Assembly (NCBI GenBank): GCA_028289445.1
Contig: JANQPO010000004.1
Coordinates: forward strand, 310,001-374,000
Source: Tepidamorphaceae bacterium
GTDB lineage: Bacteria; Pseudomonadota; Alphaproteobacteria; Rhizobiales; JAKSCL01
Reading direction: 5' to 3'
Length of the DNA: 64,000 nucleotides
Shown here: positions 1 to 9,329 of the stretch, piece after piece
Numbering within the stretch: the first letter of the stretch is position 1
How the letters are laid out: each line of letters opens with the position of its first letter
Notes under the pieces: model-generated
The model's input: the letters and a program-made list of their open reading frames with translations, nothing else
Database searches by the model: none
What the model was told of the DNA's origin: nothing
Program-made: the position numbers and the translations under genes

Positions 1-91
1 GGCGGACCGCCATATAGGCACCGAACACGACAACCGCGACGCCGGCCAAAACCGAGAGTCGCTTGAACCAACGCCACAGGAAACTCATCAT
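1..91 (-). CDS. N-terminus of a membrane-anchored protein (partial, continues beyond window start)
   Basis: Reverse strand reads MMSFLWRWFKRLSVLAGVAVVVFGAYMAVR: basic N-terminus followed by one hydrophobic helix; runs off the window edge. Confidence 0.55.
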   Translation of the reverse strand, partial: MMSFLWRWFKRLSVLAGVAVVVFGAYMAVR

Positions 92-107
92 GACTCGCCC
101 CCCTGCG

Positions 108-1668
108 TCATGACCCTTGGTCCATCTTATCGAGAAGGGCGGCAACAATCACCCGTCGCTGGAACGGACCTTCGGCGAAAATCTCTGGGGGCAGATCTTC
201 GATGGCCGTGTCGAGCGAGGCCACGTCATCGATCACAGAGATCGTTGCCGTGATCGCTGCCCAGGGTTCGTCAAGCGCAAGTGTGAGAGACGAGAGACGC
301 TCGCCGGTGGCAAGCCGTGCAGGTGCGCCGGTACCCTGATGAAGGGCAAGCGTTAACGTGTTGCCACTGCGCGATGACGTGTCATCGGCGATCTGTACGC
401 GATGAAGCGGCGCGCGGTCGACCAGTCGAAGCGTGTCGATCCGCCCGCCGACAATGCGCTCATCGTCCAATTGAACGAAGCCGGAGAGTTGCAGGGCTTC
501 GTTTGTTTCGCAGTCGAATCGAACCTCGTCGGGCCGTGTGTCATGCCGTGCGAGCCGCGCAACGCAAGCGGACTGAAATCGCTGCCGCTCACCGTCGCGT
601 GTCATCAATCGAGAAGCGATCGCCGCGATATCGCGATCGGGAAGAAGCATCGCGAGGGAGCGAACGGCCCTGTGCATATCGGCAATTCGATCGCCGGACA
701 CTGGCCAGATTATCCGGCTTGGGCGCGCTGTCTCGGGATCGAAAACACCGGCGGCCTGAACGATGTCGCCGGGGGCGATGCCGGCCTCAAGGTCAACTGC
801 CGGGTTACGGCTCGGGATTTGAAAATCGGCAAGCGCGAAACCCTGAGGCCAATCCGCATTAAGCCGCTCCTGGAGTGTTTCCGCCAGTTCGCCATGGTCG
901 GCAACGGCCCGGTCGCCGCCCAGGCGAAAACGGAGAGCGGTCGTCAGGAGCCCGGTTCGGCAGCGCCGCGCCCGGTCGCCGGGGTCGCACACCTCGCGCC
1001 ACAGCCATTGTGCTGCAATTAGGTCGTTGGCGCGGGCGACCGACTGATCGAAGGCGTCTGGCTCATCGATCCCTCGCCTGACGGGAATACCGTGGAACGT
1101 ATCGCCTAGACCGGTAAGCCGCGCCGAAATCGCCGGGTTGCCGTTCGTCTCGTCCCAAAGCGGCGCGGAAAAGATTGGTGCACCGCCTTGATGACAGGTA
1201 AGGCAGATGTCCCGGTCCACGGGTGCGAAGATGTTCGGTTGATCGGCGCTGTAGTCTTCGATCGTTCGGAACTCGAACTGGCCGCTTTCCTCGCTGAACG
1301 CGATGGCCTCGATGATACCCGATGCCGGTTGGAAGCCGAGGAACACGCGGTCTTTCAATGCCGGGCCCGCGCCCGCATCCTGATCCACCGCGACGACGAT
1401 CCGGGGCGATACGAAATAGTCCGGATCGGCGGAAAACCGCTGAAGGGAACGACCGATCGGGATCAGCGCGGTTCGCACCTGAGCCGGCGCGATGCGCGCA
1501 TTGAGCGCCGCAACAAGGGCTTCAAACGGATAGGGCGTCCCGCCGCTTGCTTCGCTGAAGATTTCATCAAGTGCTGACACCGGCGTTTCCGCCTGGGCCG
1601 CGCCGATCGACAGGCCAACCGTCAGCGCGGTGACCAATGCAGCACGGCGTGTGCGCGGGGCGGTCATG
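108..1668 (-). CDS. secreted protein with a single c-type heme motif, otherwise unknown
   Basis: ORF 108..1730; likely start at MTAPRTRRAALVTALTVGLSIGAAQA (signal peptide); CxxCH motif in DICLTCHQGGAPIFSAP. Confidence 0.7.
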
Positions 1669-1674
1669 ACAGTC

Positions 1675-2661
1675 CTATTGGACCGCCGCTTGGCGCGCCT
1701 GCTCGCCAATCCAGCAATCCTCGGCGACATCGCCGCCGCCCATAAAGTCAGCCGCGCCGGCCTCTGCGACCTCTGGATTGTAGAGCGTGAAGTTCAACAG
1801 AAACGCTTTGTGGACATAGGCCCGGCCCAGATAAAAGCCCGGCCGGACCATCCTGATCTCGTCGCGCACCTGTAGGCCGCCGCGTCCGGCGAGACTGTCG
1901 GGGCCTTTTTGATAGCCGGCGATCTCGTCGGAGAACATGTAGTCGATGATGATCGATTCGCGCCGACCGTCGAGGAGGCTCTGGCCGCAATAGAGCTTCG
2001 CCGGGAAGACTAGCCAGACATTCGTCGTGGGCCGGAAATATTTAAGCCAGCCCTCGCGCGGCACGTTCGCGGTCAGCAGCGCATCCGGATTGTCGATCAG
2101 GGCTTCCAGCGGTCTGAAGTCCTCGATGAAATTCCGCAGGACCCGCTCCTCGCGATAAAACATCTTGCCCTTCCAAAGCGCGCGGCCGAGCTTTTCGGCG
2201 ATCTCGATCTTGCGCCCCGCCAAGCGGCCCTTGAAGCCGCCAACGATCTCCTCAAGGCGCGGCTCCAGGTCGCCCTCCTCGCCGCGCGGGAAGAACAAAT
2301 CGCCAAGATAAGCGCCATCGGGGATCGGTCCGGCGGCCAGCCGTCCGTAAATCTGATCGATCTCTTCCTGGTTGAGCGACCGCAGATTGTCCGGCGTCAG
2401 CGCCATCAAATCGGCGCGCGAGAGCGGGAGGTCGGACTCCACCCGCGCGAAATCGACCCGGAAGACCTTCGCCGGATTATCCGGATCCTTCAAACTGTCG
2501 TCGGTAAGAGGCGCGAAGGGAACGTCGGGCCGTGTCGCCTGAACGAGTTCTTGCGAGCCGGAGTAAAGCAGGCCGGCGGCGCCGATCAGCACGATCGCCA
2601 CGCCGAGAATACCGATAAAAACGGGACGAACCATCAACCGCCTCCACTCACAAGGTCGCAA
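1675..2661 (-). CDS. membrane-anchored protein of unknown function
   Basis: N-terminal helix MVRPVFIGILGVAIVLIGAAGLLY; overlaps the start of the downstream-oriented neighbour set; no family recognised. Confidence 0.65.
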   Translation of the reverse strand: MRPCEWRRLMVRPVFIGILGVAIVLIGAAGLLYSGSQELVQATRPDVPFAPLTDDSLKDPDNPAKVFRVDFARVESDLPLSRADLMALTPDNLRSLNQEEIDQIYGRLAAGPIPDGAYLGDLFFPRGEEGDLEPRLEEIVGGFKGRLAGRKIEIAEKLGRALWKGKMFYREERVLRNFIEDFRPLEALIDNPDALLTANVPREGWLKYFRPTTNVWLVFPAKLYCGQSLLDGRRESIIIDYMFSDEIAGYQKGPDSLAGRGGLQVRDEIRMVRPGFYLGRAYVHKAFLLNFTLYNPEVAEAGAADFMGGGDVAEDCWIGEQARQAAVQ

Positions 2662-5119
2662 CGAAGGCGATCAGCGCCTGCTTCTCGCGGTCGCTCAAGC
2701 CCTCGCCGAAACGGTGACCGGCGTTTTCGATGCGGTCGAGAACATTGGAGTAATAGCCCTGAACGAACTCGTCCCGGACCGTGAGCAGGGACTGATCGGT
2801 CGAGGCTTGAACGACATCGGTCTGACCCAGCGCCAGTTTCAAAACCGTCCGCCCGGCCATCTTCTCAAGACCTTCGCGAATCTCCAGAAGACCCGCACGT
2901 AGTTCGTCGCGGCGCTCCGGCGTCAGGTTTTCTGTGTATTTCGCATCGAACCGGTCGGGATCGGTCTTCACAAGGACCAGATCCTGGATCAGATCCTTGT
3001 AGCGCAGAGAATTGACCGAAACCGCCGGGAACCCTCTTGGGATCGTGATCGAAAGGCCCAGTTCCCGGTCGCCGATCTTGATGTCCGGCGCGACGTCTAT
3101 GATGAGATCGCGGTCGAGCAGGAACATTTTCGGCGTCCGAACTTCCGGATTAAGCAAAAGCTCCATCGAGGCCTTGTAAAGCTGGTAACGACCCTCGACG
3201 GAGGGATCGAACGCCCAGCAATTGGGTGGATCGGCGAGCGGTTGGCCGCCGTCGTCGACATAGGGCGAGCGATAGAAATCGACTGCGCGATCGCTTGGCT
3301 TGCCGCAGATTTCAGGGCCGATCGCGTTGTTGTGCATGAACGGCGCGTGCGCCCAGGTCGAAAGCAGCGAAATGTTGCGATAGTAGCCGCGCCCGGCGTT
3401 CGACATCACTTCCGGCCGGTTCGGGTCGTGCGCGCGCTCGTGCAGGTCGAGCGAGGCATATTGCTCCCAAACCCGTGTCTTCATGTGGTTGGAGTGAAGC
3501 GAGCGGGCACTGTAGGTGCCGATTTCCGTCGCCGGCGAGAGTTGGTCGTTGCCGAGCCAATCGAGCCTGAGCGTTGGATCATCCGGGTCGGTGGCGGTGA
3601 AGTCGACATTGTCGTAGGGCCCAGGCTGGCTCGAATGGCACCGGGCACAGGTCTGCGCGAACACCGCGCGGCCTTCTTCGACGGCACCGTCGAAGTATTC
3701 GTCGTCAAGGGCAACTTCCAGGTCGCGCGGGCTATCGAGGCCCCGCGCCTGCCACAAATCGGTCGGTCTTGCGGTCAGGAAGAAAGCCTTGATGTCGTCC
3801 AGCCGGTCCTCGATTGCCCGGAAACTGGCGCAGTCGCGGCGACAAATGCCGATGTCGAATGGCGTTTGGCCATAATTGCGCTGTGCCGGGTCGGCGGCGC
3901 GCAGGTCCGGGATATGGTTCATCCAGCACTGTTCGGCGCAAGAGCCGATGTTGAAATAGACGCGTTGGATCGCTTCGTTGAAGCCGATGGAATCCTCGCC
4001 GCCTTTCAGCACGAAGGGCACGTCCTCAACCTTCTCGGAGCGCTCCCAGCACTTACCGGCCTTGCCTGGCTCGCACCAGCAGGCATCCGGGTCGGCGTCG
4101 ACGGCGCACATCTCGGTCTTGCGCCATTTCAAGACCCGCTGCTCGAACACCGGCCGGCGGGCAAAATTGATGATGGCGTTCATCGTGCCTGGATTGGACA
4201 CAAGGTCCATCGGCAATGCGGAGGTGTCGACAATGCCGGGCCGGGCGCGGGCGACAAGCTGCCACTCAAGCCGGTGCTGCGACAGGCCCGATCCGAGCAT
4301 CTCGGAAATGCGGCTGTACTGATTGCCGACCAGGCCCTTGATGTTTTCCCAGGCCGGATTGTCCGGGTCAGCCGGCGGATTGAGCGGATCGTAGGCGATG
4401 TGACAGGCGCCACAGGCCATGCCGATGCGGAACGGCGGCTCCACCGAGCCATCCATGATCCTGTTCATGCGGCCATCGGGATCGTTCGGATCGGGCGACA
4501 GCATGTTGCGGTAGCCGTCCCAGGACGCCGGCGATCCGTTCAGTCGCGTCCAAGCATCGGCGTCGAAGCGGGGGTTCGGAAACTTCCGCAAGCCGAGTGC
4601 GCCGGTCGAGGTTCCAAAGTGCAGATCACAGGAATCCTGCCGTTGATCGACGTCGCCATGTGGCGTCGCCGTGTCGAACGGTCCGTCGACGAAGTCGCAG
4701 GCCGGGTCGCGATATCCTTCGCGGCCAACGAAGGCCAAAAGCTCGTCGTCGCCCGGACACCATTGAAACCCATAGGTCTCCTCAAGCGATTGAGCGGGGC
4801 AGTTTTCGTCGCCGGGCACGCAGCAGTCGGGATTGGGGATCGCGCCCCAGGCATTGAAGAGGTCACCCTTCTTCTCGGCGGCCAGCACCTTATACCAGTC
4901 GATCACCGCACCCAGGCGCTGCGGATAGGAATAGGTGAAGAAGCGGTCGTTGAAGGCCGTGGCGAACAGCCAGATTTCCCGGCCGGCTCGCTCCGATGGC
5001 GAGTAGATCGAATCGGTCGCGGCATAGTCTTCGCTCAACATGCTTTGCGCGCGCGCCGGCGATGCCGATCCAACAATGGACAGAAAAACAAAGACAAGAA
5101 TTATCGAAATCAGTCGCAT
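2648..5119 (-). CDS. secreted diheme c-type cytochrome, possibly RoxA/RoxB-like
   Basis: Signal peptide MRLISIILVFVFLSIVGSASPARAQ; two CxxCH motifs (MACGACHIAYDPLNPPADPDNPAWENIKG and TCARCHSSQPGPY) far apart in an 823-aa protein. Confidence 0.7.
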   Translation of the reverse strand: MRLISIILVFVFLSIVGSASPARAQSMLSEDYAATDSIYSPSERAGREIWLFATAFNDRFFTYSYPQRLGAVIDWYKVLAAEKKGDLFNAWGAIPNPDCCVPGDENCPAQSLEETYGFQWCPGDDELLAFVGREGYRDPACDFVDGPFDTATPHGDVDQRQDSCDLHFGTSTGALGLRKFPNPRFDADAWTRLNGSPASWDGYRNMLSPDPNDPDGRMNRIMDGSVEPPFRIGMACGACHIAYDPLNPPADPDNPAWENIKGLVGNQYSRISEMLGSGLSQHRLEWQLVARARPGIVDTSALPMDLVSNPGTMNAIINFARRPVFEQRVLKWRKTEMCAVDADPDACWCEPGKAGKCWERSEKVEDVPFVLKGGEDSIGFNEAIQRVYFNIGSCAEQCWMNHIPDLRAADPAQRNYGQTPFDIGICRRDCASFRAIEDRLDDIKAFFLTARPTDLWQARGLDSPRDLEVALDDEYFDGAVEEGRAVFAQTCARCHSSQPGPYDNVDFTATDPDDPTLRLDWLGNDQLSPATEIGTYSARSLHSNHMKTRVWEQYASLDLHERAHDPNRPEVMSNAGRGYYRNISLLSTWAHAPFMHNNAIGPEICGKPSDRAVDFYRSPYVDDGGQPLADPPNCWAFDPSVEGRYQLYKASMELLLNPEVRTPKMFLLDRDLIIDVAPDIKIGDRELGLSITIPRGFPAVSVNSLRYKDLIQDLVLVKTDPDRFDAKYTENLTPERRDELRAGLLEIREGLEKMAGRTVLKLALGQTDVVQASTDQSLLTVRDEFVQGYYSNVLDRIENAGHRFGEGLSDREKQALIAFVATL

Positions 5120-5228
5120 GAACCGCTCCCGTCGCCGTCCAAGCCACCGAGGGTCAGGGTGTCAGCCACGTCCCGCCTCCCGGCAACTTCGCATGGACCG
5201 AAAGCTGCGCCATTGCCCCTGACACAAC

Positions 5229-5248
5229 TGTTGGCATGCTAACATGCC
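5229..5248. promoter_or_regulatory. candidate operator palindrome upstream of the diheme cytochrome gene
   Basis: TGTTGGCATGCTAACA (one mismatched pair in a 16-bp palindrome) overlapping GGCATG-CTAA-CATGCC. Confidence 0.35.
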
Positions 5249-5334
5249 GCGACGTCATGGCAACCTTTGCGCGCAATTGCCGCAGTGCTTTTCGTGTGTG
5301 GTCGACACGCTTGCGCTCGAAGCGATCGTTTGCG

Positions 5335-5841
5335 TCAGTGACCTGCGGGAATGAGGCTCTCTGCCATGAGGTCTTCGACGAAAAGGCTGAGCAGTTGCGT
5401 TCTGCCGTTCACGCCGGCCTTGCGGTAGATCGCGTTGCACTGCGCCTTAACTGTCCCCTCCTTTGTCTCCCGAACGCGTGCAATCTCGGCGACCGGCAAG
5501 CCCTTGATGGCCAGCAGCGCCACGTCGCGCTCGGCTTCGGTCAGGCTCCAGGTCTCGAAGTGTTCCCGCAGCAGGTCGGAAAACGCGCCCGATGCCGCCT
5601 TGATTTGATGCTCCATCCGCTGCTGACGGCGCAGGATTTTTCGGATTTCCAATCCGGTGAGCACGAGACCGAGGATCAGGGCGATCACGACCAGATATTC
5701 GAACAAATCCGTGTCCTTGACGCCAAGCGCTTGCTCCCAGCCCATCACGTCCGCGACCGCGTCCCCGAGGAAAAACAGGACGCAGAACGCCTGCAGCGTG
5801 AACAAGGCAAAAAGGCTGATATGGCGTCCAGGTTCGGTCAT
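5335..5841 (-). CDS. membrane-anchored LuxR-family transcriptional regulator
   Basis: Two predicted TM helices (SLFALFTLQAFCVLFFLGDAV; YLVVIALILGLVLTGL) then LuxR HTH (SLTEAERDVALLAIKGLPVAEIARVRETKEGTVKAQCNAIYRKAGVNGRTQLL). Confidence 0.8.
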   Translation of the reverse strand: MTEPGRHISLFALFTLQAFCVLFFLGDAVADVMGWEQALGVKDTDLFEYLVVIALILGLVLTGLEIRKILRRQQRMEHQIKAASGAFSDLLREHFETWSLTEAERDVALLAIKGLPVAEIARVRETKEGTVKAQCNAIYRKAGVNGRTQLLSLFVEDLMAESLIPAGH

Positions 5842-5925: not shown

Positions 5926-6234
5926 TCAGTCGTTGTCATCGTCAACGTCGTCTTTTTCGATCTCAATCTCGATCACTTCGCCCGTTTCAGTGGCGATCTC
6001 GATCTCGTAGGCGATTGAATCCTTCGTCGCCTCGACTTCGATTTCGTCGCCCTCGACCTCGATCTCTTCGATCACGTAGCCGTCCTGTTCAAGCATGGCG
6101 CGGATTTCCTCTTCCGTCGAGCCAAGCTTGTCACCCACCGTCACGCTGGCAAACGCGAGCGCTGGCGCCAGGGCAAGTGCCAGAACGGCGGCCGAGCCTT
6201 TGAGTCGATTGGATGTGATAAACGATTTCGTCAT
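5926..6234 (-). CDS. PepSY-domain-like small secreted acidic protein
   Basis: Signal peptide GSAAVLALALAPALAFA; C-terminal alternating acidic/hydrophobic residues EIEVEGDEIEVEATKDSIAYEIEIATETGEVIEIEIEKDDVDDDND. Confidence 0.6.
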   Translation of the reverse strand: MTKSFITSNRLKGSAAVLALALAPALAFASVTVGDKLGSTEEEIRAMLEQDGYVIEEIEVEGDEIEVEATKDSIAYEIEIATETGEVIEIEIEKDDVDDDND

Positions 6235-6364
6235 TTGGGGTCTCCATTGGTTCAAGTTGACGTGCGCCCGCTCCGTGCGGGCCGACCCGAACTAGGTGCT
6301 GAAGCGCCCTCACCCCATTGCCAAAAAGCTTATGTCTTTCAGCCTATAACCAAAGTTTAGGCGC

Positions 6365-7333
6365 CTAGCGCCTCTTCACGCGATAGTGCGTCGGGCTTTC
6401 GCCGAAACGTGCCTTGAACCGGCGGGAAAACACCGATGGCGCGCTAAAGCCGGTTCGCACGCCGATCTCGCCGACCGAAAGACTGGTATCGCGCACCATG
6501 CGGCGCGCCGCCTCAAGGCGCAGATCGCGATAATAGCGGCCCGGACTGCGGCCGAGCGCGGATCGGAACAAATCGTCCAGCGTGCGTGTCGACACCGATA
6601 GCCGCTTTGCGATCGCCGGAAGCGTCAGTGGCTCGTCAAGCGCGCCCGTCATCAGGTCGATTGCCGCCGCAACGCGCGGCTCGTGGCCGCCGAGCCGGCC
6701 TGTGGACACCAGTGGCTGCGCGTCGGTGCCGGAATGGGCGGCGTCGTAGATGAAGACGCTCGCCACCGACAGTGCCAGCGGCATGTCCCAGCGCGCCTGG
6801 ATCAAGTGCAGCATCAAATCGAAAGACGGCGATGCACCCCCGGCCGTGAAGACCGGAGGATCGACGACGAAGCGATCCGCCCGCACATCCGTTTCGGGAA
6901 ACCGCGCGGCGAAGTCCTCCAAATCCTCCCAGTGCGTGGTCGCGGATTTGCCGTCGAGCAGCCCTGCCCGGGCCAGCAGCCAACTGCCGGCTTCCACACC
7001 GCCGATCATGGCGAACCGCCGCAACGCGGACGACAGATATCGCAATCTGCCGCGCTCGACGTGACTGGCCTGTCGAAACCCGGCGATGATGATCAAAAGG
7101 TCGCCCGCCGACCGTTCGCCGAAGGTGCCGTCGGCGGCGATCGGCACGCCGCACGTCGTCATCGCCGGACTGCCATCCAAAGTCTCGATCCGCCAGGAAA
7201 ACAACACCCGGTCGGCGACCCGATTGGCGGCCCGCATCGGATCGACTGTGGAAGCAACCGACATGATCGATGAATCCGGAACGACCAACAAAGTGGCTGA
7301 AAGCGGCTGATTGGACGGTGCGAACAAAGACAT
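6365..7333 (-). CDS. GlxA-family AraC-type transcriptional regulator (CdhR-like)
   Basis: DJ-1/PfpI-like N-terminus (SATLLVVPDSSIMSVASTVDPMRAANRV) plus AraC HTH C-terminus; divergent from the carnitine-type operon. Confidence 0.82.
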   Translation of the reverse strand: MSLFAPSNQPLSATLLVVPDSSIMSVASTVDPMRAANRVADRVLFSWRIETLDGSPAMTTCGVPIAADGTFGERSAGDLLIIIAGFRQASHVERGRLRYLSSALRRFAMIGGVEAGSWLLARAGLLDGKSATTHWEDLEDFAARFPETDVRADRFVVDPPVFTAGGASPSFDLMLHLIQARWDMPLALSVASVFIYDAAHSGTDAQPLVSTGRLGGHEPRVAAAIDLMTGALDEPLTLPAIAKRLSVSTRTLDDLFRSALGRSPGRYYRDLRLEAARRMVRDTSLSVGEIGVRTGFSAPSVFSRRFKARFGESPTHYRVKRR

Positions 7334-7420
7334 TGCGAAAATAATCAAGTATTTCGCTGAATTCGTCAAACATAGACGGAGAATCTCGTCAACATGACCG
7401 CTAAAGAGGGAGGAATCGCG

Positions 7421-8329
7421 ATGGCATTGTCGGTCAACCGCGCCGTTTTCATCACCTGTGCGCTCACCGGGTCGGGCGACACGGTCGGCCGGTCCGACAA
7501 GGTGCCTGTGACACCGCGACAGATCGCCGACGCCGCGATCGAGGCCGCCGAGGCGGGCGCGGCGATCGCCCATATCCATGTCCGCGACCCTGACACCGGC
7601 AAACCGTCGCGCGATCCGGCGCTCTATCGCGAGACGGTGGACCTGATCCGTGCGTCCGGCGTCGACATGGTGCTGAACCTAACCGCCGGCATGGGGGGCG
7701 ATCTGGTACTCGGCTCGCCGGACCGTCCCCTGCCGCCCGATGATGCCGGCACCGACATGGCGAGCGCTGAGGAGCGCCTCGTTCATATCGCCGAGATCAA
7801 GCCTGAAATCTGCACCCTCGACTGCGGCACGATGAATTTCGGCGAAGGCGACTACGTGATGACCAATACGCCGGCCATGCTGAAAGCGATGGCCGCGCGC
7901 ATTCAAGCGCTCGGCGTGCGTCCCGAAATCGAGATCTTCGATGGCGGTCATCTGGTGCTGGCCAAGTGGCTGAAGGATCAAGGACTGATCGACGATCCCG
8001 TCATGGTGCAGTTGTGCATGGGCATTCCCTGGGGCGCACCGGACGATATCCCGACCTTGATGGCCCTGGTCGGCAATCTACCGGAAGACTGGACGTTTTC
8101 CGCGTTCTCCATCGGCCGCAATCAACTGGCTTATACGGCGCTCGCAGCGCTTGCCGGCGGCAACATCCGCGTCGGTCTGGAAGACAATCTCTGGCTTGAA
8201 AAGGGCGTGTTGGCGACCAATGGCGATTTGGTGGCGCGCGCTGTAACCATCGCAGAATCAATGGGTTGCGCCATACTCGGCCCCGATGAGGTGCGTCAGA
8301 AACTCATGCTTCAAAAGCGCTGGGCATGA
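7421..8329 (+). CDS. BKACE-family beta-keto acid cleavage enzyme, probable 3-dehydrocarnitine cleavage enzyme
   Basis: VFITCALTGSGDTVGRSDKVPVTPRQIADAAIEAAEAGAAIAHIHVRDP is a BKACE signature; GAGGGAGG RBS before ATG at 7421. Confidence 0.85.
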   Translation: MALSVNRAVFITCALTGSGDTVGRSDKVPVTPRQIADAAIEAAEAGAAIAHIHVRDPDTGKPSRDPALYRETVDLIRASGVDMVLNLTAGMGGDLVLGSPDRPLPPDDAGTDMASAEERLVHIAEIKPEICTLDCGTMNFGEGDYVMTNTPAMLKAMAARIQALGVRPEIEIFDGGHLVLAKWLKDQGLIDDPVMVQLCMGIPWGAPDDIPTLMALVGNLPEDWTFSAFSIGRNQLAYTALAALAGGNIRVGLEDNLWLEKGVLATNGDLVARAVTIAESMGCAILGPDEVRQKLMLQKRWA

Positions 8330-8330
8330 T

Positions 8331-9329
8331 ATGAGTAGTATTAATAAAATAGCTGTCGTCGGTGGCGGCGTTATCGGCGGCGGTTGGGCGGCCCGGTTCG
8401 TTCAAAACGGTATCGATGTCGATGTTTTCGATCCGGCGCCGGACGCCGAGAATACCATATCGGCATTACTGCGGGACGCTGAGCGGGCCTTTAAGGCGCT
8501 CTTTCCGAAGGCCAGGTGGATGCCCGGCCAGATGCGGTACTGCGCCAGCATCGCCGACGCCGTCGCCGATGCCGACATGGTCGTCGAATCGGTGCCGGAG
8601 CGTCTCGACATCAAGCAATCCGTCTATGCGGAGATCGAGGCCGCAGCCTCAAAGGAAACGATTATCACGTCCTCGACGTCTGGCCTTCGTCCGACGGCAC
8701 TCCAGGCCGAGATGATCCATCCTGAGCGCTTGATTGTCGCTCATCCGTTCAATCCGGTTTATCTCATTCCGCTGGTCGAGCTGGTTGCGGGTGAGCGATC
8801 CGACGATGCGGTCGTTGCGCGGGCGGCCGACCTCTACACGGCGCTCGGCATGAAACCGCTCGTCGTGCGCAAGGAAATCGATGCTTTCATCGCCGACCGG
8901 CTGTTGGAGGCCATGTGGCGCGAGGCCCTCTGGCTGGTGAAGGACGGTGTCGCGACGACGTCCGAGATCGACGACGCGATCCGCTTCGGCTTCGGCCTGC
9001 GTTTCGCGCAGATGGGGTTGTTCGAGACCTATCGGATCGCCGGTGGCGCGGCCGGCATGCGCCATTTCCTGGCGCAGTTCGGTCCGACATTGGCGTGGCC
9101 CTGGTCCTATTTGACCAATGTTCCGGAGTTCACGGACGACCTCGTCGAGACGATCGCCGGTCAATCCGATGCCCAGTCCGGCGATCGCACGCTTTCCGAC
9201 CTGGCGCGCAAGCGTGACGACAATCTGGTCGCGATCCTTGCCGCCCTCCGTGAAACTGGCTGGGGTGCTGGCGAAACGGTCGGTGAACACGCTGCGCGTC
9301 TGGCTGACCGGCCATCTGCGGGGAACTGA
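8331..9329 (+). CDS. 3-hydroxyacyl-CoA dehydrogenase family, probable L-carnitine dehydrogenase (no fused thioesterase)
   Basis: Rossmann motif IAVVGGGVIGGGWAARF; HPFNPVYLIPLVELV; adjacent to BKACE. Confidence 0.85.
   Translation: MSSINKIAVVGGGVIGGGWAARFVQNGIDVDVFDPAPDAENTISALLRDAERAFKALFPKARWMPGQMRYCASIADAVADADMVVESVPERLDIKQSVYAEIEAAASKETIITSSTSGLRPTALQAEMIHPERLIVAHPFNPVYLIPLVELVAGERSDDAVVARAADLYTALGMKPLVVRKEIDAFIADRLLEAMWREALWLVKDGVATTSEIDDAIRFGFGLRFAQMGLFETYRIAGGAAGMRHFLAQFGPTLAWPWSYLTNVPEFTDDLVETIAGQSDAQSGDRTLSDLARKRDDNLVAILAALRETGWGAGETVGEHAARLADRPSAGN

Follow-up and report, generated by a model that had tools for sequence, protein, structure and literature searches.

Fatty-acid oxygenation is, to our knowledge, documented for only a small number of bacterial enzymes, and the diheme representatives among them, namely the rubber oxygenases and the oleate diol synthase, are found alone or in pairs. 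Among eukaryotic enzymes, the coral allene oxide synthase converts fatty-acid hydroperoxides. In the rubber oxygenase RoxA of Steroidobacter cummioxidans 35Y (structure 4b2n), residue F317 lies beside the bound O2, H641 is the second axial ligand of the C-terminal heme, and W302 is a tryptophan in RoxA only, when compared with RoxB (PMC6311187). In P. aeruginosa, the RoxA-like proteins PA2077/PA2078 (FadCcp), an oleate 10S-dioxygenase and a diol synthase, are encoded in tandem, and between them they produce a fatty-acid hydroperoxide and transform it further; one of the two proteins has an inter-heme tryptophan, which the other lacks (PMC4496055). Apart from this P. aeruginosa work, a literature search retrieved no description of a gene cluster like the one presented here.

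Organization of the locus

The analyzed window is a stretch of 64,000 nucleotides from a Tepidamorphaceae bacterium (contig JANQPO010000004.1, positions 310,001 to 374,000). At its start lies a set of five tightly packed genes on the minus strand, A-B-C-D-E. A single operon is the natural reading of this arrangement, since the genes overlap or are separated by gaps of less than 20 bases: A and B share 14 nt when position 2661 is taken as the start of B, and the gap between C and D is below 20 nt. The window edge had cut the set short, as D and E were found beyond it, in the adjoining 10 kb of the contig. The original prediction had recognized the right kind of system, but it covered only three and a bit of the five genes and missed the continuation of the operon beyond the window. 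The features are as follows (window positions unless stated otherwise):

5841-5335, minus strand: membrane-tethered LuxR-type regulator (GerE domain, E 2.3e-7), a local neighbor outside the conserved set
5119-2648, minus strand: gene A, 823 aa, secreted, two c-hemes, distant RoxA-like core
4400..4414, minus strand: N-terminal heme motif CGACH of A (H240), read from the sequence, invariant in 35/35 homologues
3635..3649, minus strand: C-terminal heme motif CARCH of A (H495), read from the sequence, invariant in 35/35 homologues
2714..2716, minus strand: H802 of A, aligning with RoxA H641 (35/35 homologues)
2661-1675, minus strand: gene B, 328 aa, start at TTG 2661 or ATG 2634, N-terminal membrane anchor
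1667-108, minus strand: gene C, ATG at 1667 with the ORF open from 1730, 519-540 aa, exported
1191..1205, minus strand: heme motif CLTCH of C, read from the sequence, present in 37/37 homologues
91-1, minus strand: start of gene D (first 91 bases inside the window), RoxA-like diheme protein
contig about 310091-308508, minus strand: whole gene D, 546 aa by longest ORF
contig 308501-306975, minus strand: gene E, 508 aa, RoxA-like diheme protein, wholly outside the window

The operon contains seven c-heme motifs. Those of A and C are no chance occurrences, because both motifs of A are invariant in 35/35 homologues and the first CxxCH of C is present in 37/37. Hydropathy analysis reveals hydrophobic N-terminal segments in A, B, D and E, and the N-terminus of C looks signal-like by eye. 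The ORFs, the motifs and these N-termini confirm the earlier view of leftward genes with exported or membrane-anchored products, some of them carrying CxxCH.

The LuxR-type protein, which has two hydrophobic segments, had also been counted as a member of the system. This assignment was dropped, as no relative occurs at any other locus. Upstream of its gene, a PepSY-domain protein (5926-6255; PF13670, E 4.5e-12) and an AraC-type regulator similar to GbdR (6365-7579; 212 bits against a cut-off of 480) are encoded, and both were rejected as members on the same ground. Beside the GbdR-like regulator, on the plus strand (7394-9329), genes for beta-keto acid cleavage enzyme-like and 3-hydroxyacyl-CoA/carnitine dehydrogenase-like proteins suggest carnitine or choline catabolism. 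Downstream of E, on the opposite strand, genes for aerobic carbon monoxide dehydrogenase-like subunits were observed (L002:1386-5255).

Relationship of the five proteins to described families

D and E pass the cut-offs of both the RoxA-like_Cyt-c family (PF21419: 57.7 and 55.7 bits, cut-off 26.7) and the di-heme-cytochrome C peroxidase family (NF040606: 173.4 and 159.5 bits, cut-off 150). Against the RoxA and RoxB models, they score 54.5 and 59.6 bits (D) and 51.0 and 66.5 bits (E), below the cut-offs of 900-1000. By far the best PDB match of a D/E profile is RoxA (4b2n, E 2.1e-26), with the cytochrome c peroxidase 9qdt far behind (2.3e-6). Like RoxA and RoxB, D and E have two CxxCH motifs, the MauG motif and the bis-His position of the C-terminal heme; unlike them, they are membrane-anchored and smaller. 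The MauG motif reads PY[FLM]HNGSVP, with its histidine in all 44 D and E sequences. From the di-heme cytochrome c peroxidases and MauG, whose superfamily includes D, E and, distantly, A, the proteins differ by the RoxA-type extra C-terminal histidine ligand, their larger size and their fixed gene neighborhood.

The active sites were compared by taking the RoxA positions from PMC6311187 and aligning the D/E profile to 4b2n. In D, histidines at the equivalents of H195, H394 and H517 and the tryptophan at W302 are present in 23/23 sequences, the histidine at H641 in 22/23 (with one gap) and the phenylalanine at F317 in 21/23. E has a leucine at the F317 position in 21/21 sequences and a tryptophan at W302 in only 11/21. 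Given the positions kept by D and those lost by E, D looks like an O2-binding enzyme of the RoxA type, and E like its diverged partner. A comparable asymmetry is described for PA2077/PA2078, also a tandem RoxA-like diheme pair: compared by description, the inter-heme tryptophan is found in all D and is often missing in E. In contrast to E, PA2078 retains the phenylalanine, and the description of the P. aeruginosa system mentions no counterpart of the genes A, B or C (PMC4496055).

A is a more distant relative. Its family matches are marginal (PF13442, 27.4 bits for a cut-off of 27), and its second heme region scores as Cytochrome_CBB3. It reaches only 20.5 bits with the RoxA model (cut-off 1000) and 15.6 bits with the RoxB model, below cut-off, and falls below the cut-offs of PF21419 and NF040606 as well. 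When a profile of 35 A homologues was compared with that of D/E, the C-terminal heme domains could be aligned (hhalign E 1.7e-15); judged by this comparison, A and D/E are homologous in that domain. The two CxxCH motifs together with the H641-type ligand are found in 35/35 A, in 22/23 D (one gap) and in 21/21 E sequences. For the N-terminal, presumed catalytic half of A, no alignment to RoxA was obtained. The MauG motif is degenerate in A (PFMHNNAIGP); its histidine occurs in 34/35 proteins of the closer group of loci (type I, see below) and is absent in type II. A is further distinguished from RoxA and RoxB by its 823 aa with 13 invariant or nearly invariant non-heme cysteines, and the whole system by its fixed partners B and C and by the scores of A, D and E, far below the RoxA, RoxB and RoxC cut-offs. 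The RoxA connection first suggested for A is therefore clear for D and E and distant for A itself, the less RoxA-like member.

B and C gave no significant match to Pfam, NCBIfam or PHROGs, and their profiles found no meaningful match in the PDB. They had been predicted to be two dedicated partners of no known type, and the lack of a Pfam or NCBIfam family for either agrees with this. The AlphaFold model of B (pLDDT 86) has its best Foldseek match with 4mve (TM 0.65 by target, E 9e-3), presumably a protein of the GXWXG/DUF4334 type, for which no Pfam match was found in B. The next, partial matches are retinoic-acid- and fatty-acid-binding proteins. The predicted fold, an alpha/beta domain with weak fatty-acid-binding-protein/lipocalin-like matches, hints at a lipid-binding barrel. 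B relatives have a lipobox-like N-terminal anchor. Short B homologues (~143 aa) that lack a membrane anchor were also noticed near many type II A genes (L085, L086, L088-L090, L092-L099, L101 and L105).

The AlphaFold model of C (pLDDT 89) gave no Foldseek match in the PDB under E 0.001. Weak matches to dirigent/allene-oxide-cyclase-like barrels (probability 0.4-0.9, TM by target 0.3-0.4) were discounted. Compared with the D/E profile, only the CxxCH stretch of the C profile matches. C has one CxxCH here; long homologues in Nitrospira, Gammaproteobacteria and others add a second, C-terminal CxxCH domain, which is missing in the alphaproteobacterial forms.

Conservation of the gene set and exchange of the D/E pair

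A scan of 85,462 genomes yielded at least 431 encoded relatives, and 79 of these loci were kept. In type I loci, A is about 40-76% identical. Their carriers, according to record titles and among the matches listed, are Alpha-, Beta- and Gammaproteobacteria, Nitrospira, Acidobacteria, Chloroflexi (Ardenticatenales) and a Bdellovibrio. The titles Candidatus Kuenenia stuttgartiensis and Rhizobium sp. Q54 (L034, L032 and L033) fit poorly, their A being nearly the same as that of L031 (Sphingomonadales), and some of these assemblies are probably mislabeled. Type II relatives, found on rhizobial plasmids and elsewhere, have an A of about 930 aa that is 25-30% identical. Their clusters are ordered OYE-D-small protein-E-A-GMC, followed in one case by a patatin-like phospholipase gene.

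Among the matches listed, B follows A in 44/44 testable loci and C is present in 36/39, so that the neighbors do co-occur and the gene set is dedicated and conserved, as originally predicted. D and E are found in 18 of the 25 listed loci with full flanks, always in the order D-E where both are visible. In an unbiased sample of 386 genomes of the same class, A occurs in seven and the tandem D/E in six, all six with A (p 1.6e-12). The A of the seventh genome is a fragment at a contig end, in an assembly that is 82% complete; three other genomes of the sample contain a single D/E-like gene without A. On these counts, the genes can be regarded with near certainty as a genuine multi-heme system of the envelope that is conserved.

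Where D/E is missing, three other genes often lie directly 3' of C, encoding X433 (an unassigned protein of ~433 aa), a DyP-like protein (TIGR01413, under the cut-off at E 5e-21) and a catalase-like protein. Among the matches listed, 40 loci have only D/E, 19 only this cassette, none both, and 27 neither in view (p 8e-7, with some loci incomplete). Over whole genomes, DyP is lacking in a first set of 7/7 genomes with D/E (that of the window and six more) and present in 9/10 genomes without a full D/E (p 4e-4). Most of these ten genomes were picked because their locus lacked D/E, and many because the cassette was present; what is informative here is therefore that the respective other module is missing. 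Among 22 further D/E genomes, DyP was matched strongly in one, which also has a second A locus, and more weakly in two. Conversely, D/E was found in 0/12 type II genomes picked for the cassette, with a query that does match other genomes. Nitrospira is itself split, four against five, between D/E and DyP. In the tree of A, six changes between D/E and the cassette are needed, at least five of which are forced by well-supported branches. Repeated exchange at one site, with never both modules at a locus, is what functional equivalence predicts; genetically, this argues strongly that the two heme modules, although unrelated, fulfil equivalent tasks.

In the PDB, the catalase-like profile matches only the allene oxide synthase of corals (1u5u, E 3.5e-5; 3dy5, E 5.4e-4), weakly per domain, and no true catalase. 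Unlike the coral enzyme, the bacterial protein is not fused to a lipoxygenase but stands alone beside the DyP-like protein, and the cassette is absent from the operon of the window itself. By hydropathy, no export signal was found in the X433, DyP-like and catalase-like proteins (L047, L053, L092, L098 and others), and the replacing cassette may therefore lie on the other side of the membrane from the membrane-anchored D/E. In one genome (L019), A, B, catalase-like and DyP-like genes lie ~7 kb from a gene that looks squalene-hopene-cyclase-like by eye, and a different contig of this genome holds two additional DyP-like copies with weaker scores.

Lipid-linked neighbors recur around these loci: GMC oxidoreductases, patatin-like and Tle1-like lipases and OYE-type reductases, plus an LCAT-like protein once.

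Possible function in the cell envelope

By analogy with the described enzymes, the system may be a pathway of the cell envelope in which an unsaturated hydrophobic molecule is oxygenated, with an unsaturated fatty acyl chain as the most likely substrate, and the lipid hydroperoxide formed is converted further (probability of about 0.45). Following RoxA and PA2077, A and/or D would act as dioxygenases, with O2 bound at the N-terminal heme. The hydroperoxide would then be converted by E or, elsewhere, by the DyP-like/catalase-like cassette, as PA2078 and the coral allene oxide synthase suggest. The membrane-anchored B, from its predicted fold, might bind or present the lipid, with C as a putative c-heme partner. 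Optional patatin, Tle1-like or LCAT-like lipases could free the substrate, and GMC and OYE proteins could process the products in some versions. Several observations speak against lipid oxygenation: a number of carriers are nitrite oxidizers (Nitrospira, Nitrotoga) and not lipid degraders; E has its leucine at F317 and keeps W302 in 11/21 sequences only; the presumed catalytic half of A gave no alignment to RoxA; the DyP-like and catalase-like proteins show no export signal by hydropathy; and both the 1u5u match, domain by domain, and the fold match of B (E 9e-3) are weak.

The main rival is an envelope peroxide defense without any oxygenase, in which D/E, or the DyP-like and catalase-like proteins, would remove H2O2 or lipid peroxides by reduction, with electrons supplied or damage sensed by A, B and C. 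Every swapped protein is also peroxidase-like, D and E belonging to the NCBIfam family 'di-heme-cytochrome C peroxidase' and being replaced by members of two further peroxidase families, which fits plain peroxide removal, and the nearby lipases could clear damaged lipids. However, D still carries the RoxA signature, with the F317 position and the H641 ligand as part of it, the RoxA structure (E 2.1e-26) is matched far better than the 9qdt peroxidase (2.3e-6), and the catalase-like profile matches allene oxide synthase and not catalase. A pure defense function is the less probable of the two, and oxygenation with hydroperoxide handling is the best-supported mechanism, at slightly less than even odds.

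Far less probable is a MauG-type protein maturation, by which the diheme proteins would generate, in a partner like B or C, a cofactor made of modified residues. The PYLHNGS motif in D and E and the strict linkage of B and C, both without known families, would fit such a role; yet the set has no partner of a known quinone-cofactor type, D/E is swapped for DyP-like/catalase-like families that are not known for maturation, and the neighbors that recur are lipid-linked. About as improbable is a relay for electron transfer at the cell surface, with A, C, D and E merely carrying electrons: seven c-heme motifs in one operon and the Cytochrome_CBB3 score of A are compatible with it, but the RoxA-type active-site positions are conserved, and the recurring neighbor clusters contained no conspicuous gene for a porin-cytochrome (outer-membrane) or a terminal oxidase. 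Degradation of rubber (polyisoprene) by RoxA/RoxB orthologues encoded in this operon, for which RoxA as the closest solved structure to D/E would speak, is very improbable in view of scores of 15-78 bits with the RoxA, RoxB and RoxC models (cut-offs 900-1000), the missing F317 equivalent in E and the nitrite oxidizers among the carriers.

Returning to oxygenation and hydroperoxide conversion, the five-gene system occurs across phyla with core proteins of no assigned family and a second module that is repeatedly swapped. We tentatively propose, as a possibility that falls short of even odds, that it represents a widespread, new oxylipin-type pathway of bacteria, in which a fixed envelope core of A, B and C would be combined with exchangeable hydroperoxide-processing cassettes (RoxA-like c-type pairs, or DyP-like plus allene-oxide-synthase-like proteins) and sometimes with built-in phospholipases and enone reductases. 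The system would thus offer a testable set of genes for the oxidation of oxylipins or membrane lipids in bacteria, the nitrite-oxidizing Nitrospira among them.
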